From contig NZ_AOIN01000008.1 of the NCBI RefSeq assembly GCF_000337135.1, positions 285,989 to 349,988 of the forward strand: a DNA stretch of 64,000 bases, read 5' to 3'. Source of the stretch: Natrialba chahannaoensis JCM 10990. GTDB lineage: Archaea > Halobacteriota > Halobacteria > Halobacteriales > Natrialbaceae. Below the pieces are notes generated by a model, which saw only the letters and a program-made list of their open reading frames with translations, made no database searches and was not told the origin of the DNA. Made by a program: the position numbers and the translations under genes. This document shows positions 20,285 to 45,165 of this stretch, piece after piece; within the stretch, counting starts at the first letter, position 1, and each line of letters opens with the position of its first letter.

Positions 20285-23209
20285 ATGTCTCGTCGATCGG
20301 GTGTTACCGATATATTGTGGGGTAATATTGAGGACGAGAACAGCTGGGAACGGTATCGTGCCCTCGCCCGGACGGTCGATGGTGGACTCTGCCAGTGGGA
20401 CGAGAACGGCCACATTGTGGTCGTCGACGAGGACTTCCGATCGATCACTGGCTATCCGGGTGAGGAGCTTGCAGGCACCCACATTTCGACACTCTTCGAC
20501 GATGCAGGTGTTGCGACGATCGACGACATGCTCGCCTCCCAGTCCGAGGACGAACCCGTCGTCGAAACCGCGGTCGACATCCGAGCCGTGGATGGGAATG
20601 CGGTGCCGTGTACTGTCCGAGTTAGTCGAATACCGCCAGCGGAAGACGCGACCGAGGACGAGCCGGACGGTGTGCTCTGTTTCGTCCGCGAACAGGGTGT
20701 GGATTCGACCGCGGGTTCGGAACGGATTCCGGAGCAGGAACAGGAATCGGAGCCGGGCAGAGAATCCGAGCCGACCACAGAATCAGAAGCAGAATCTAGC
20801 CTGGAGACGATAGCGGAATCCGGACCCGTCTCGACTCCAGAGCCCACCGCCTCGGAAGCGGATCGCGCCTCGGCGGACTCGATCAAAGCTGCACTAAACG
20901 GAGCCAGCATCGGTGCGATCGTCATCGACGACAACGCCAAGATCAGGTGGCTCGACGAGACCGCCGAAGCGTATCTCGGTCTCGAGCGCGAGTCGGTTCT
21001 CGGTCGGCCCAAACGAACTGTCGTCGAGGAACAGCTCGCCGACCGGATCGTCGAGCCGGCCTCGTTCGTCAGTCGAGTCGGACGCGGAGGGGACGACGGA
21101 AGCAGCGGTGACAGCGAAGACAAAAACAAAATCGAAGACGAAAACGAAGAGAAACACGGGAACGAACGCGAAGAGAGACACAGCGATACCCCAGCCGACA
21201 CAGAGAGAAACGACCGCGAGGACGAGCAGATCACCGTCGAAACGGTATCCGACGACTACCTCGAGTTCAAACTCGTCGATGACCGCGGCGAGCGCTGGCT
21301 CGAGTATCAGAGCAAGTCGATCAAGACCGGACCCTACGCTGGTGGCCGTGTCGAGTTCTACGACGACATCACCGAGCGAAAGCGCTCTCAGGGAAAACTC
21401 AAAAAGAGTCAGGAAGCGTTCAACACCCTCGTCGACACTATCACGGAGTACGCAATCTTCCAGCTGGACGAAGACGGCCGTGTCATCAGCTGGAACGAGG
21501 GCGCACGCCAGACCAAGGGCTACAAGCGCAACGACATCCTCGGCCAGCACTTCTCGGTGTTCTACACCGACGAGGAACGGGCGGCAAATGTTCCCAAACG
21601 GAATCTGCAGATTGCACTCGAGACCGGCTCAGTCGAGGACGAGGGTTGGCGCGTCAGGAAGGACGGATCGCAGTTCTGGGCGGACGTCACGATTACGCCC
21701 GTTCGAGATGCCGACGGCACACACCAGGGCTTTCTGAAGGTGACGCGCGATATGACCGACCGACGAAACCGTGAGCGTGAGCTCGAAACCGAACTCCAGC
21801 GCGTATTCGATCGGGTGTCCGACGCGCTGTACGCGGTCGACAATGAGTTCAGATTCACGCTCGTCAACGACCGCGCCGAGGAGCTTCTCGGCTATCCCGA
21901 AGCAGACCTCCTTGGGGAGCGCCTCTGGGATGTCTTTCCGTCATCTGCCGAAATCGACGAGATCTGGGACGCGTTCCACACGGCGCGAGACGAACAGGTC
22001 CCAACGGACTACGAACTCTACTACCCTCGGCTCGGATTCTGGGTCGAAGCAAACCTCTACCCCTCCGAAACCGGCATCTCGGTCTACTTCCGAGACGTCA
22101 CCGATCGAAAACAGCGCGAACAGGAGTTAGAGGAATCGAAACAGCGCTACCGGACCATTGCCGAGTACTTCCCGAACGGCGTCGTCACCCTGTTCGACCA
22201 CGACCTCGAGTACACCCTGGCGGCAGGACAGGGCTTCGAGATGATCCGCGAAGAGCCATCCGAGATCGAAGGCTCGAACGTCGCGGATGTCTGGAACCCA
22301 GAGACACGCGAAACGATCAAACCCATCCTTCGGAGCGCACTCGAGGGCGACGAGCAGTCGGTTGAGTTCTGCCACGACGACAGAGAGTGGATACTGTACG
22401 CGGTGCCAGTAACCGACAGCGAGGGCACCGTCTTCGCCGGAATGACGATGGCCCACGACATCACCGAGCGCAAGGAGAACCAGCGCAAACTCGAGGAGAC
22501 GGTCGCCCAGCTCGAGGAGTCGAACAACCGCCTCGAACAGTTCGCCTACGCGGCCTCACACGACCTGCAGGAACCACTGCGAATGATCTCGAGCTATCTC
22601 CAGTTACTCGAACGGCGCTACAGCGAGGCGTTCGACGAGGACGGCGAAGAGTTCCTCGAGTACGCTATCGACGGCGCAGAGCGAATGCGACGGATGATCG
22701 ACGGTCTGCTCGCGTACTCCCGCGTCGAGACGCGCGGCGACCCGCTCGAACCCGTCGATCTCGACGACGTCTTCGCAAACGTCCGCGAAGACCTCCAGCT
22801 ACAGATCGGTGAGACGAACGCCGAGCTCACGGTAACCGAGGACGGCCTTCCTCGCGTCCAGGGCGATGCCAACCAGTTGCGACAAGTCTTCCAGAACCTG
22901 CTCGAGAACGCACTCGAGTACAGCGGCAACGACCAACCGCGGATACACGTCGATGCTGAGTCTCGGTTTCGCGACCGACGGCGTGAGTGGGTGATTTCGG
23001 TTCATGATGAGGGAATCGGAATCGAGCCGTCGGATCAGGAGCGAGTGTTCGAGGTGTTCGAACGGTTGCACAACCTCGGAGAATACCCAGGAACAGGGAT
23101 CGGACTGGCGCTCTGTCAGCGAATCGTCGAGCGCCACGGCGGCGAGATGTGGCTCGAGAGCGAGCCGGGGGAGTGGACGACGATGTCGTTTACGCTGCCG
23201 GCGGCCTAA
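20285..23209 (+). CDS. Multi-PAS sensor histidine kinase
   Basis: 974 residues from the ATG at 20285. No membrane segment is visible, so it is a cytosolic sensor. PAS domains begin near residues 25, 200, 377, 503 and 618. Two charged low-complexity linkers (about residues 140-195 and 275-320) sit either side of the second one. The HisKA box ASHDLQEPLRMI has its phospho-histidine near residue 758; N-box QNLLENALEYS, G1 VHDEGIGIEP and G2 GTGIGLALCQRI complete an active ATPase domain. No receiver domain or partner gene is adjacent. The signal is unknown. Confidence 0.93.
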   Translation: MSRRSGVTDILWGNIEDENSWERYRALARTVDGGLCQWDENGHIVVVDEDFRSITGYPGEELAGTHISTLFDDAGVATIDDMLASQSEDEPVVETAVDIRAVDGNAVPCTVRVSRIPPAEDATEDEPDGVLCFVREQGVDSTAGSERIPEQEQESEPGRESEPTTESEAESSLETIAESGPVSTPEPTASEADRASADSIKAALNGASIGAIVIDDNAKIRWLDETAEAYLGLERESVLGRPKRTVVEEQLADRIVEPASFVSRVGRGGDDGSSGDSEDKNKIEDENEEKHGNEREERHSDTPADTERNDREDEQITVETVSDDYLEFKLVDDRGERWLEYQSKSIKTGPYAGGRVEFYDDITERKRSQGKLKKSQEAFNTLVDTITEYAIFQLDEDGRVISWNEGARQTKGYKRNDILGQHFSVFYTDEERAANVPKRNLQIALETGSVEDEGWRVRKDGSQFWADVTITPVRDADGTHQGFLKVTRDMTDRRNRERELETELQRVFDRVSDALYAVDNEFRFTLVNDRAEELLGYPEADLLGERLWDVFPSSAEIDEIWDAFHTARDEQVPTDYELYYPRLGFWVEANLYPSETGISVYFRDVTDRKQREQELEESKQRYRTIAEYFPNGVVTLFDHDLEYTLAAGQGFEMIREEPSEIEGSNVADVWNPETRETIKPILRSALEGDEQSVEFCHDDREWILYAVPVTDSEGTVFAGMTMAHDITERKENQRKLEETVAQLEESNNRLEQFAYAASHDLQEPLRMISSYLQLLERRYSEAFDEDGEEFLEYAIDGAERMRRMIDGLLAYSRVETRGDPLEPVDLDDVFANVREDLQLQIGETNAELTVTEDGLPRVQGDANQLRQVFQNLLENALEYSGNDQPRIHVDAESRFRDRRREWVISVHDEGIGIEPSDQERVFEVFERLHNLGEYPGTGIGLALCQRIVERHGGEMWLESEPGEWTTMSFTLPAA

Positions 23210-39462: not shown

Positions 39463-40476
39463 ATGAGCCATCCACCTTCCCCGGCAGAGTCGACCGCACT
39501 GTCGATCCTCGGCACCAAGTGGAAGCCCCGGCTGATCGTCGCCCTCGCGATCAATGATCGGCTCGGGTTTGGCGATTTAAAACGCGAACTCGCCGGTATC
39601 TCGGGAAAAGTATTGTCGGAGAACCTGGAGGAACTGCGCGATCACAACATCGTCTCACGCGATGTCGTGCAGGAACAGCCCCGCCGCGTCGAGTACGAAC
39701 TGACTAGTGCCGGACGAGAACTGTACGGAGTTCTTGAATCCCTTGCAGACTGGGATGCGACGTACGCAACCGAGCGCGGCAGACCAACAGTTCTGCTCGC
39801 TGAAGACGATCCACGGCTCCGGGAGCTGTACGCACTGTGGTTGCAAACCGACTACGACGTGGTGACAGCAGCAGATGGCAAGGAAGCGCTCCGCTTGCTC
39901 GATGAGACCATCGATGTGGCAGTGCTCGCTCGTGACCTACCAACACTGGATGGTCCCGCAATCGCAGCCGCACTCGAGACGACCAGCCAACGAACACCGG
40001 TCGCGATCGTAACGTCAGGAAATATTTTCCCTGACGATGTGTCGATACCGGCAGATGTGTTGGTCCGCGATCCGCTCTCGAAAACCACCCTCCGAGAGAT
40101 CGTGGGGCGATTGACGCGACTCAGATCGGAGTCGTCGATTGGTCGAGACGTTCGTGCGCGTCGCAACCGACTGACGTTCGTCGAACGCCACCTCGGGCCG
40201 ACGGTATCGGCGACCGATGCCTACCAGCAGGTAGCGGACGAACTGGCAGCACTCGAGCAGGAACGAGCGGCGGCGGCCGAGTCGAGAGAACCCTGGCGGC
40301 GACTGCGATCGACAGCGGACTCAAACTCAGACTCAGACTCAGACTCGGCGTCCGCGGCCACGAGTCGAGCACAACGCCCCGAGCGAGAGCGTGACCACAA
40401 GCGAACCCACGCGACCGGAAACTCGGCCGAAGACACCAGCACACACAACGACAGTGACGGTGATGAAAACAAATGA
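39463..40476 (+). CDS. HxlR-type HTH fused to a degenerate receiver domain
   Basis: 337 residues. Residues about 8-105 are an HxlR winged-helix DNA-binding domain (LSILGTKWKPRLIVALAIND ... PRRVEYELTSAGREL). Residues about 107-230 are a receiver domain (PTVLLAEDDPRLRELYALWL) that keeps the acidic pair but has Ala156 where the phospho-acceptor Asp belongs (VAVLARDLPTLDG) and lacks the usual Lys in LVRDPLSK. A HalX-like helical stretch and an Asp/Ser tail follow. It should bind DNA without phosphorylation control. It overlaps the next gene by ATGA. Confidence 0.88.
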   Translation: MSHPPSPAESTALSILGTKWKPRLIVALAINDRLGFGDLKRELAGISGKVLSENLEELRDHNIVSRDVVQEQPRRVEYELTSAGRELYGVLESLADWDATYATERGRPTVLLAEDDPRLRELYALWLQTDYDVVTAADGKEALRLLDETIDVAVLARDLPTLDGPAIAAALETTSQRTPVAIVTSGNIFPDDVSIPADVLVRDPLSKTTLREIVGRLTRLRSESSIGRDVRARRNRLTFVERHLGPTVSATDAYQQVADELAALEQERAAAAESREPWRRLRSTADSNSDSDSDSASAATSRAQRPERERDHKRTHATGNSAEDTSTHNDSDGDENK

Positions 40477-41073
40477 CTGGGGCGAACGAAACAGCCGACG
40501 TCCAATCGATCTTGCTCGTCGAAGACGACAATCTCCAGGCGCGGCTGTATCAGATGATGCTCCAGCAACTCGCAAGTCAGGAGGATGCGCCACTCGAGTT
40601 GGTGTCCGTCGAGCACGTCGAAACGCTGGCAGAGACTCGAAACGCGATCGACACGCCCGAGACAGACGACACGACGACAACCGAGACGGGTGACTGCCCG
40701 TTCGACCTTATCCTCCTCGATCTGAACCTCCCCGACTCGAATCGCCTCGACACACTGACGTCGGTACTCGAGTTTACCCACGAGATACCGGTTGTCATCC
40801 TGACCGCGATGGACGACACCGAACTCGGCCAGCGGGCGGTCGAACGTGGTGCGCAAGACTTTCTGATGAAAGAACACGTGACACCGCGGCTGCTCGGACA
40901 GACCGTGGCCTACGCTGTTGAGCGCCAGCACCAGCGCGCTGAAATCGAACGCCAGCGTCGCGAGTTAGCGCTGCTTCACTGGCACGTCCGCCACGAGTAT
41001 CGTGGCGATGCCGCGGTAATACTTGGTTGGGCGTCGGAGCTCACGGCGAGCGATCCCGACACGCAGCGGACAA

Positions 41074-41081
41074 TCGCACGA
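41074..41081 (+). repeat. 8-bp target-site duplication, left copy
   Basis: TCGCACGA, repeated exactly at 42082-42089 on the other side of the IS. Confidence 0.9.
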
Positions 41082-42081
41082 CGCTCTTCTGTAGGAGATT
41101 GTTGATATTGCTCAGCTGTCGCTGTGGAATCGAAGAGAGCAAGGACACCGCGTCAGCGGTGTCCGTTAGGCATGATTCCGCTCGATGTGTTTGGATCGGA
41201 ATCGATCGCAGCGGACCTGTTGGCGCAGGTTCGCTGGCGTAACGGTGTTACTTGCCCTCGCTGCAGTTCTGACCTGACGGTCAAGAACGGCAGCTATGGA
41301 TACTTTCAGCGCTATCTCTGTAAGAATTGCGACCGCACGTTCAACGACAAGACTGGCACAATCTTCGCCCATTCGAAAGTCGCACTCAGAAAGTGGCTGT
41401 CCTCGATTTACGCGTTTCTCCGGTTTAACACGAGTCTTCGCCAGCTTCAGCTAGAAATCGACGTTCAGTACAAAACGATCTACCAACGCGTCGAGCGCTT
41501 CACGAAGGCGCTCGACGCGCCTTCGCTCGATCTTGTTGGTCCAGTCGAGATCGACGAAGTCTACGTTTCTGCAGGGCTGAAAGGCCGCGAGCGCGACCAA
41601 GAGTCGCGCTCGCGTGGCCTGTCCACGCGTGGACGAGGATCGTACGATCAGGACAAACCGCCGGTGTTCACGATCGTCGATCGCGCCACCGGCGAGCGAT
41701 ACGTGATCCCGCGAAATCAGCCGACGAATCGACGATTCGGCTCCTTCTCGCAAACCGCGAGAAGGAGCCACTGACTGTCTACACCGATGGATTTCGTGCC
41801 TACGATCCGTTGGCCGAGGACGACGCATTCGACCGCGAATACGTCGTCCATGGTGACGGCGAGTACGCTGACGAAAACGTTCACGTCAACACCTGCGAGA
41901 GCCACGGATCGCTGCTGCGACCGTGGCTCTCGCCTCATCGAGGCGTCTCAAAAGACAAGCTCACACAGCATCTCCGAGCGTTCCAACTTCGACGAAAGCT
42001 ACTGCGGAAACCAGGGAGAGAAGCGCTCAAACACGCTGTCAAAGCCACTCTGTGAAATCAACAAAGTGCTACACAAGAGCG
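41082..42081 (+). mobile_element. IS1595-family insertion sequence, 1,000 bp
   Basis: Both ends are clear. The left end CGCTCTTCTGTAG matches the reverse complement of the right end CGCTCTTGTGTAG at 12 of 13 positions, extending to about 21 of 25. Perfect 8-bp direct repeats TCGCACGA flank it, the TSD size usual for this family. It carries one transposase gene with a frameshift. Perfect TSDs and clean gene reconstitution show a recent insertion. Confidence 0.93.
41172..42055 (+). pseudogene. IS1595-type transposase with a -1 frameshift
   Basis: The start MIPLDVFGSES leads to a zinc ribbon (CPRCSSDLTVKNG ... CKNCDRTFNDKTGT) and HTH, then the DDE/N catalytic core: VEIDEVYVSAG, later VYTDGFRAYD and HVNTCESHGSLL. 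One base is missing near 41707-41710, after RYVIP. The first frame ends at 41774 and the second frame runs from there to 42055. Unless ribosomal frameshifting restores it, the IS cannot move by itself. No obvious slippery sequence is present. Confidence 0.85.
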
Positions 42082-42089
42082 TCGCACGA
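42082..42089 (+). repeat. 8-bp target-site duplication, right copy
   Basis: TCGCACGA, identical to 41074-41081. Confidence 0.9.
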
Positions 42090-42832
42090 ATCATCGACGC
42101 GGGAGAACACATCGTCGACCTCACTGACTCGATCGCCGCGATGGTGCAGGCGATCGAAACGCCGAATCCGGTTCGTAAGTCCGTCGCGCTTGATCCGGTG
42201 CTCGAAACGGCGGTCGACCGGCTTGAAACACGCTACGACAATCTGGGGTTCGAGTGGGATCCAACACCAGAAGTGGACGTTCAGGTGCTGTCAGACCAAT
42301 TTCTCGGAATTGTCATCAGAGCGACTGTGCATACGCTCGTCGAATGCAGTGGTGTGTCACAGCAGCAGATCGTTCTGCGGCCGTTCCGAACCGAGACCAA
42401 GAGCGATGGCTGTTTCGAGTCGGAGTCGAGATCGAGGTCGAGATCAGAATCGGAGTCACAGTCGAGGCCGGAATCAGACCCCGAAGGCGACCAGCGTATC
42501 GCCAATACCGACGGAAAGAGCGACGATAGGAAGGGCGGCAACGAGACCAGCGCCGGGTTCGACCTCGTCGCACCCACACTCGAGAAAGCGGAGGTCAAGG
42601 CAACAGTAGATGAGCTGAACCAGGGGAGCGACATCGAGTCGATTCTGGTACAGACGTTTCTTGACCGCTACGGTGGCGAGGTGAGAGTTATCTGCCCGGA
42701 AAATGATGGCGAAGAGCCCGTGCTACGTGTCGAATTGGATGCTGCCGAGTGAGTGTGTTGGCCCACTATGACGGTATCTCGACCGGAGAGAAGCGCTCGA
42801 AGCTTGAAGCCCTTTGACCACGTACGATTGAT

Positions 42833-44269
42833 ATGACGGCAGTAGCAGACGGCGAGATTCGTGTGCTCTGTGTCGACGACGACAACGTCATTCTCGGGCT
42901 CACGAAGACCGTTCTCGAACGGCTCGAAGACTCCATCGTCGTCGAGACCGAAACGGATCCGACGGCAGCGCTCGATCGATTTCGAACACGAGACTACGAC
43001 TGTGTCGTCTGTGACTACGAGATGCCGGGGCTGTCGGGGCTCGAACTGCACGATGCGATCCGCGAGGAAACCCCCACGATACCGGTGATCCTGTTCACCG
43101 GCGCTGGTTCGGAAGAGGTTGCAAGCGAGGCGATTCGGCGCGGCATAACCGATTATCTCCGGAAAGAACGCGGGATGGCACAGTACGACGTGCTTGCATC
43201 ACGAATTACAACCGCAGTCGAGCGCTACCGCACATTCGAAGAGCTCCAGCGCAAGAACGCGGCGATGGACGAAGCACCGGTCGGGATCGTGCTAACCGAC
43301 TCGAGTCTCCCCGATAATCCGATCGTCTACGCCAACGAGGAGTTTTACGACCTGACCGGCTATCCCGCCGCGGAGGTACTCGGTCGAAACTGTCGATTTC
43401 TGCAGGGGGAACGAACCGAGCAGGAGCCGGTCGATCGAATGCGAACGGCGATCGAGGCGCGAGAGCCGATAACAACGGAAGTTCGAAACTACCGTCTCGA
43501 CGGGACGATGTTCTGGAACGAGGTGACGATCGCACCGATCGACGACAGCGAAACGCCGTACTTCGTCGGCTTCCAGCACAATATAACTCGCCGGAAGCTC
43601 GCCGAGCAACGACTGAGCCGGCAGAACGAGCGACTCAAGGAGTTTACGGGAACCGTCTCACACGACCTCCGTGGACCGCTTGCCGCCGCAACGGGCTATC
43701 TCGAACTGGCCCGGACGGAAGCAGATGATGTCCCGTTTCTCGACGACGTTGCAGCCGCACACCAGCGAATGGAGACCCTCATTGACGACCTGCTGGTGCT
43801 CGCTCGAGCCGGGAACGTCATCGACGACAGCGAACCAATCTCGATCGTGGAAACCGTCGAAAACGCCTGGAATCCTCCGCCTCATCTGGCAGTGACGCTC
43901 GATATTCAGATACCGGACGACGTGCAGGTTCAGGCGGACCAGAATCGGCTCGTACAACTATTCGAGAACCTCCTCGGAAACAGTCTCGAACACGGCGTTC
44001 ACGACGATGACGGAACAGAGACAGTGACGATCACGGTCGGACCCCTCGAGGACGGGTTCTTCGTCGCGGACGACGGGCCCGGTATTCCGCCAGATAAGCG
44101 CGAGATCGTCTTCGAGTCCGGCTACACGACCAACCCAGACGGCACCGGACTCGGCCTTCGGATCGTCCAGGATATCGTCGATGCTCACGGCTGGAGTGTG
44201 ATTGCAACCGAGAGCGACGAGGGCGGTGCTCGCTTCGAGATTACGGACGTATACAACAATGACGACTGA
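42833..44269 (+). CDS. Receiver-LOV-histidine kinase (blue-light sensor kinase)
   Basis: 478 residues, soluble. Receiver domain 8-130 with phospho-acceptor Asp61 (CVVCDYEMPGLSG). Residues 140-255 are a LOV domain: NPIVYANEEFYDLTGY, the adduct-forming Cys187 in GRNCRFLQG, flavin-contacting Asn219 and Asn229 (NYRLDGTMFWNE), and Gln248 in GFQHN. All the residues needed for the flavin-cysteinyl photocycle are present. HisKA has His277 (VSHDLRGPL); N-box FENLLGNSLEHG, G1 ADDGPGIPP and G2 GTGLGLRIV form an active kinase. It ends the signalling cluster. Confidence 0.92.
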   Translation: MTAVADGEIRVLCVDDDNVILGLTKTVLERLEDSIVVETETDPTAALDRFRTRDYDCVVCDYEMPGLSGLELHDAIREETPTIPVILFTGAGSEEVASEAIRRGITDYLRKERGMAQYDVLASRITTAVERYRTFEELQRKNAAMDEAPVGIVLTDSSLPDNPIVYANEEFYDLTGYPAAEVLGRNCRFLQGERTEQEPVDRMRTAIEAREPITTEVRNYRLDGTMFWNEVTIAPIDDSETPYFVGFQHNITRRKLAEQRLSRQNERLKEFTGTVSHDLRGPLAAATGYLELARTEADDVPFLDDVAAAHQRMETLIDDLLVLARAGNVIDDSEPISIVETVENAWNPPPHLAVTLDIQIPDDVQVQADQNRLVQLFENLLGNSLEHGVHDDDGTETVTITVGPLEDGFFVADDGPGIPPDKREIVFESGYTTNPDGTGLGLRIVQDIVDAHGWSVIATESDEGGARFEITDVYNNDD

Positions 44270-44421: not shown

Positions 44422-45165
44422 ATGTTTAAGGCCATCGTGAGCGCGGAAACGCTCACCAGCGCGCTCGACTCGATCAGCGTGCTGGTCGACGAGTGTAAGA
44501 TCCACCTGGAGGAAGACGGACTCGAGATTCGAGCCGTCGACCCCGCAAACGTCGGGATGGTCGACCTCTCGCTCGACGCGGCCGCCTTCGAATCCTACGA
44601 GGCCGACGGCGGGCTGATCGGCGTCGACCTCTCCCGACTCGAAGACATCGCAGGCATGGCCGAATCCGGCCAGCTCATCCAGTTCGAACTCGACGAGGAG
44701 ACCCGAAAGCTCCACATCCAGATCGACGGACTCGAGTACACCCTCGCGCTCATCGATCCGGACAGCATCCGCCAGGAGCCAGACATTCCGGAACTGGACC
44801 TGCCGGCAGAGGTCGTCCTTGAAGGAAAGGACGTCAACCGCTCGGTCACGGCGGCAGATATGGTCTCCGACCACATCGCGCTGGGTGTCAACGAGGGCGA
44901 CGATTCCTTCTACGTCGATGCAGAGGGTGACACTGACGATGTCCACCTCGAACTCACAGCGGACGATCTGATCGACCTACAGGCCGGTCCCGCTCACTCG
45001 CTGTTCAGCCTGGACTACCTGAAGGACATGAACAAGGCGATCCCCTCGAATACCGAGGTCACGCTGCACCTCGGCGAGGAGTTCCCAGTCAAGATCTACT
45101 TCGGCTTCGCGGAGGGACAGGGGCAGGTCACCTATATGCTCGCGCCGCGGATCCAGAGCGACTGA
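44422..45165 (+). CDS. pcn: DNA polymerase sliding clamp (PCNA)
   Basis: 247 residues, the canonical length of archaeal PCNA, which forms a homotrimeric ring around DNA and tethers polymerases, FEN1 and ligase. It starts [40 protein letters not shown] is the conserved inner-ring helix region, and the end [21 protein letters not shown] is the last strand and C-terminal segment that binds PIP-box clients. The interdomain connector region ([16 protein letters not shown]) is intact. It is a single gene. Confidence 0.97.

Follow-up and report, generated by a model that had tools for sequence, protein, structure and literature searches.

The open reading frame at positions 42833 to 44269 (+) of the window, the whole 64,000-nucleotide stretch of DNA analyzed here, encodes a sensor kinase of 478 residues with the domain order REC-LOV-HisKA-HATPase. 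Sequence, predicted structure, and selection support the identification of this REC-LOV-kinase as an intact LOV histidine kinase with an N-terminal receiver. The protein is very probably a soluble, homodimeric blue-light receptor histidine kinase, for which we infer flavin binding, photocycle, dimerization, coupling, and partner. The layout is already described, and LOV proteins are present in most haloarchaea.

Domain Organization and Conserved Residues

The frame of the REC-LOV-kinase starts with ATG, and its assignment is based on the translated open reading frame, Pfam, and an AlphaFold2 model. All features described here and below lie on the plus strand. The four Pfam domains score above their gathering cutoffs in the order Response_reg (residues 11 to 113; 5e-25), PAS_9 (149 to 252; 3e-21), HisKA (268 to 327; 1e-12), and HATPase_c (369 to 471; 1.5e-19), which confirms the original prediction of a receiver in front of the LOV domain. 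Alignment of the active-site residues shows Asp15, Asp16, Asp17, Asp61 (codon 43013 to 43015), Thr89, and Lys111 to be intact in the receiver domain (residues 8 to 125, positions 42854 to 43207).

The LOV domain comprises residues 142 to 262 (positions 43256 to 43618), as defined by its match to and superposition on the YtvA LOV structure 2pr5, and contains the motif GRNCRFLQG at residues 184 to 192 with Asn186 and the adduct-forming Cys187 (codon 43391 to 43393). The flavin-contact residues Asn219, Asn229, Gln248, Gln191, Arg188, and Arg204 align to those of YtvA, which identifies the segment as a LOV domain. The YtvA arginines aligned with Arg188 and Arg204 hold the FMN phosphate. The LOV segment matches the LOV domain of YtvA with an E value of 1.4e-39, and LOV plus kinase match the engineered LOV kinase YF1 (4gcz) with 6e-52; these values therefore exclude a chance match.

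The kinase portion is a HisKA sensor histidine kinase, with a dimerization and phosphoacceptor domain carrying His277 (PF00512, positions 43634 to 43813) and a HATPase_c domain (PF02518, positions 43937 to 44245) containing the N, G1 (DDGPGI, residue 413), and G2 (GTGLGLRI, residue 437) boxes. A script check found Cys187, Asn219, Asn229, and Gln248 as well as Asp61 of the receiver (CDYEMP) and His277 of the kinase (SHDLRGPL) each at the predicted number and the latter two intact, as had been proposed. Two curated equivalog models do not accept the protein: the YtvA model NF052652 gives 160.6 bits versus a cutoff of 250 and covers the LOV part only, and the blue-light-activated histidine kinase model NF052306 gives 136.5 bits versus 450.

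Predicted Structure and Linker

The AlphaFold2 model of the REC-LOV-kinase was built from 19 sequences and has a mean pLDDT of 83 and a monomer pTM of 0.44. In the secondary structure of this model, two uninterrupted helices connect REC, LOV, and kinase. The first (residues 116 to 147, positions 43178 to 43273) extends the last helix of REC into the N-terminal helix of the LOV domain, and the second (residues 252 to 296, positions 43586 to 43720) runs from the LOV domain through the helix carrying His277. The REC domain superposes on 3crn (Z score of 20.7, 1.5 Å over 129 residues) and the LOV domain on 2pr5 (Z score of 19.4, root mean square deviation of 2.1 Å over 126 residues). The best Foldseek match of the model is YF1 (4gcz), with an E value of 3e-30. 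Over the whole chain, the deviation from YF1 amounts to 14 Å, with matching domains in a different arrangement, as expected when a dimeric, flexible protein is modeled as a monomer. This deviation and the monomer pTM count against the mechanism proposed below.

In LOV kinases, coupling through a coiled coil is marked by heptad spacing, with linker lengths in the classes 7n and 7n+1 and a heptad rule for YF1 (PMC6798134). The conserved threonine behind the LOV domain and the phosphoaccepting histidine are 25 residues apart in the relatives measured, except for one with a spacing of 18, a difference of one heptad, as expected of a coiled coil; the value of 26 for the protein L002 is an offset of the pattern matching. 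YF1, a chimera of the YtvA LOV domain and the FixL kinase, likewise connects LOV to HisKA/HATPase by one helix but is engineered, lacks a receiver, and has a linker 9 residues longer (34 versus 25). The spacing thus falls outside the published classes, which counts against the mechanism proposed below, and an assignment of light-on or light-off behavior from linker length was discarded.

Orthologs, Selection, and Phylogeny

The closest named relatives of the protein are from Natrialba sp. SSL1 (94% protein identity) and N. hulunbeirensis (90%), followed by Natronorubrum texcoconense (64%). A genome search likewise groups the window genome with the genus of Natrialba sp. SSL1 and N. hulunbeirensis, in agreement with the haloarchaeal host assumed at the outset. 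Within Natrialba, the REC-LOV-kinase shows a dN/dS of 0.13 to 0.15, denoting purifying selection, and the LOV domain has the lowest values of its domains (0.05 to 0.13). For comparison, the ratio is 0.03 to 0.06 for PCNA and 0.23 to 0.35 for the two genes upstream of the kinase. The adduct cysteine is present in every ortholog compared. An apparent loss in the sister species G003 and G005 was rejected, as their orthologs had been missed by a strict DNA pattern and the proteins retain the cysteine (NCRLLQ and DRNCRFLQ). Two Natrialba genomes encode a second, divergent REC-PAS-PAS-LOV-kinase of ∼750 residues with glutamate at the REC aspartate position (L111, G003:C7; L113, G005:C1). The window itself contains a further long kinase with a 1,010-residue open frame at about 21473 to 23149, which shares PAS and kinase similarity with the LOV kinase and lacks the LOV core motif.

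In the phylogenetic tree, the sampled archaeal LOV domains form one group (support of 93/85) beside those of Bacillaceae, with the syntenic REC-LOV-kinases as a supported subclade within it. This grouping leaves a recent transfer from Bacillus unsupported. The LOV domain of Bacillus YtvA, from the neighboring group, is about half identical to that of the REC-LOV-kinase, but YtvA has neither a receiver nor a kinase. Its output domain is a STAS domain.

Relationship to Described LOV and REC-PAS Kinases

The original prediction, which noted that haloarchaea are best known for rhodopsin-based light sensing, implied that a flavin-based kinase is unusual among them. This implication is not supported: the exact DNA pattern of the LOV core occurs in 235 of the 292 Halobacteria genomes sampled (68 of 77 genera), with no match of the reversed control pattern in any listed genome, and the class is described in papers from 2014, 2018, and 2025. 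The class-wide scan rules out the reading as a rare photoreceptor. Losi 2014 (PMC4844311) lists 167 LOV proteins from archaea, among them some of RR-LOV layout, and Valle 2025 (PMC12202551) describes REC, PAS, and GAF modules in front of the kinases of haloarchaeal LOV proteins and a LOV domain from another genus that photocycles at up to 3 M salt. These proteins share the haloarchaeal LOV domain, the module types, the kinase output, and the GXNCRFLQG motif with the REC-LOV-kinase. They are nevertheless other proteins, and the biochemically tested ALovD-1 from Halonotius is the isolated LOV domain of a three-PAS kinase.

N-terminal REC-PAS-kinases are a major archaeal class, comprising almost 20% of archaeal REC proteins (Galperin 2018, PMC5847659). 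The N-terminal receiver, PAS-fold sensor, C-terminal HisKA-HATPase, and Natrialba host place the REC-LOV-kinase in this REC-(PAS)n-HisKA-HATPase class. Its single PAS domain, however, is a canonical LOV domain, and LOV is absent from the text of that paper. An N-terminal REC is found in most of the sampled archaeal LOV proteins ending in a kinase, according to a script-built profile and a sample weighted toward relatives. The literature search found no biochemical test of a full-length REC-PAS or REC-LOV kinase from archaea and, for the REC-LOV-kinase itself, no measured flavin binding, light response, or kinase activity.

Three-Gene Module beside PCNA

The genes for an HxlR-REC regulator, a REC-degenerate kinase, and the REC-LOV-kinase form a conserved module next to PCNA. 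Seven Natrialbaceae genomes share it, of which four are Natrialba, two are Natronorubrum, and one belongs to a third genus. The shared order continues from PCNA to a hydrolase and a priL-like gene, and the more distant genomes have extra genes inserted within it. Three other Natrialba genomes contain PCNA and the downstream genes but lack the module within 8 kb upstream of PCNA, and they have no strong ortholog of the LOV kinase. In the window, PCNA, the DNA polymerase sliding clamp, lies at positions 44422 to 45165 (NCBIfam PRK01115, 2e-110; synteny). A sister species carries a second PCNA with 66% identity, located where a contig or small replicon ends (G004:C4:11-748). No light-related gene was identified near the REC-LOV-kinase.

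The HxlR-REC regulator (positions 39463 to 40476) combines an HxlR winged helix with a receiver, both detected by Pfam, and has a low-complexity acidic tail. In an alignment of the seven orthologs, the phospho-aspartate position of its receiver is occupied by alanine in four Natrialba, including the window protein, by asparagine in one Natronorubrum, and by aspartate in the other two. The middle gene (positions 40473 to 42752) encodes a receiver and a degenerate kinase in coding pieces at 40473 to 41081 and 42090 to 42752; intact orthologs of about 410 to 440 residues exist in three other Natrialba. In the intact protein, Pfam detects only the REC domain; the G1 box is absent in Natrialba, and the histidine is replaced by glutamine in N. 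texcoconense.

The middle gene is split by an IS1595-family element of 1,000 bp (positions 41082 to 42081) with the ends CGCTCTTCTGTAG and CTACACAAGAGCG, identified by transposase matches. The element is flanked by a perfect 8-bp target-site duplication, TCGCACGA (left copy, 41074 to 41081; right copy, 42082 to 42089), so the insertion looks recent. An intact 1,001-bp copy with a 316-codon frame is located at G000:C8:136639-137639, and relative to that frame, the transposase of the window copy is frameshifted. Many partial copies of the element lie at contig ends of the window genome. The split gene could still yield only the receiver and the first helix.

Decay of the REC-LOV-kinase along with this interrupted neighbor just upstream, a reading that the HxlR receiver without its aspartate would also fit, is very improbable in view of the open kinase frame, the complete motifs, and a dN/dS of 0.14, even if decay after so recent an insertion would not yet be visible.

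Proposed Mechanism and Role of the Receiver

In the proposed mechanism, the LOV domain would bind FMN, and blue light would join Cys187 to the flavin in an adduct with slow dark recovery. The signal would pass from the LOV β-sheet via the continuous coiled-coil helix of residues 252 to 296 to the helix bundle of His277, shifting the balance of kinase and phosphatase activities. His277 would then pass its phosphate to a receiver partner. Among the proteins encoded nearby, the likeliest candidate would be the neighboring REC-degenerate-kinase protein, whose receiver is intact; the splitting of its gene in the present strain counts against the mechanism.

The N-terminal REC most likely serves as an accessory input or accepts phosphate from its own kinase. 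As one helix (residues 116 to 147) joins REC to LOV, the receiver would be placed to modulate the dimer. Gating of the light response by a second phospho-signal, as originally suggested, is possible, and acceptor and structural roles are equally so. As an upstream gate, the receiver would be phosphorylated at Asp61 by another kinase and would thereby set whether the REC-LOV-kinase answers light. This role, a tenable minority reading, is consistent with a complete REC pocket, including the aspartate, in both the window protein and most orthologs, with the single helix of the predicted model, and with Galperin 2018 (PMC5847659), where phosphorylation or ligand-driven dimerization is suggested as REC input and phospho-REC-driven dimerization is proposed for archaeal REC-PAS-kinases. 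However, the syntenic ortholog of genome G104 has glutamate in place of Asp61 and a shortened REC that lacks part of the first helix while keeping LOV and kinase, and degenerate receivers occur in many other REC-LOV proteins of archaea. Up to 40% of the RECs of archaeal REC-PAS-kinases might not be phosphorylated (PMC5847659), and no upstream kinase was identified.

The second reading, to be held just as tentatively, takes the receiver not as an input but as the acceptor of phosphate from its own His277, as a sink or relay step. The presence of a complete REC and a complete kinase within one chain would suit this role, but transfer to an N-terminal REC within the chain or across the dimer is not known for this class, and intramolecular transfer is assigned mainly to hybrids with a C-terminal REC (Galperin 2018, PMC5847659).

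A main function of the REC-LOV-kinase in redox or flavin sensing, with light incidental, is quite unlikely. LOV receptors can signal by flavin photoreduction without the cysteine (PMC4682037), and the neighborhood without an identified light-related gene would agree with such a function. The retention of the adduct cysteine in all orthologs compared and the position of LOV as the most constrained domain argue instead for the blue-light receptor kinase.

A wider proposal, for the Natrialba lineage with the module, extends the blue-light receptor kinase to all three genes. Here, the REC-LOV-kinase would be the photoreceptor of a conserved module with three receivers and would signal to DNA via the REC-degenerate-kinase adaptor and the HxlR regulator, the receiver of which would have ceased to accept phosphate. 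The signal would travel by protein contact rather than a His-Asp relay, with the REC-LOV-kinase as the main recognizable light sensor of the strain. Such a role of the module is unlikely. In the 97%-complete draft of the window genome, the exact LOV core motif occurs in the REC-LOV-kinase gene only, and there is no clear canonical retinal-binding rhodopsin. Two weak rhodopsin-family matches lack the helix-G lysine as judged by eye, unlike a strong match in G004. The opsin-family membrane proteins L193/L195 and L194 (G000:C38 and C100) are seemingly without the retinal-binding lysine.

Significance

The new detail is the three-gene module beside PCNA, with, in the present strain, a split middle gene and an HxlR receiver that has lost its phospho-aspartate. 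Flavin-based blue-light control of physiology has been little tested in a clade with LOV domains nearly everywhere. The REC-LOV-kinase is compact, with one REC, one LOV, and one kinase; its conservation is strong, its natural orthologs include some with altered receivers, and it offers a convenient test of the function of the N-terminal receiver.
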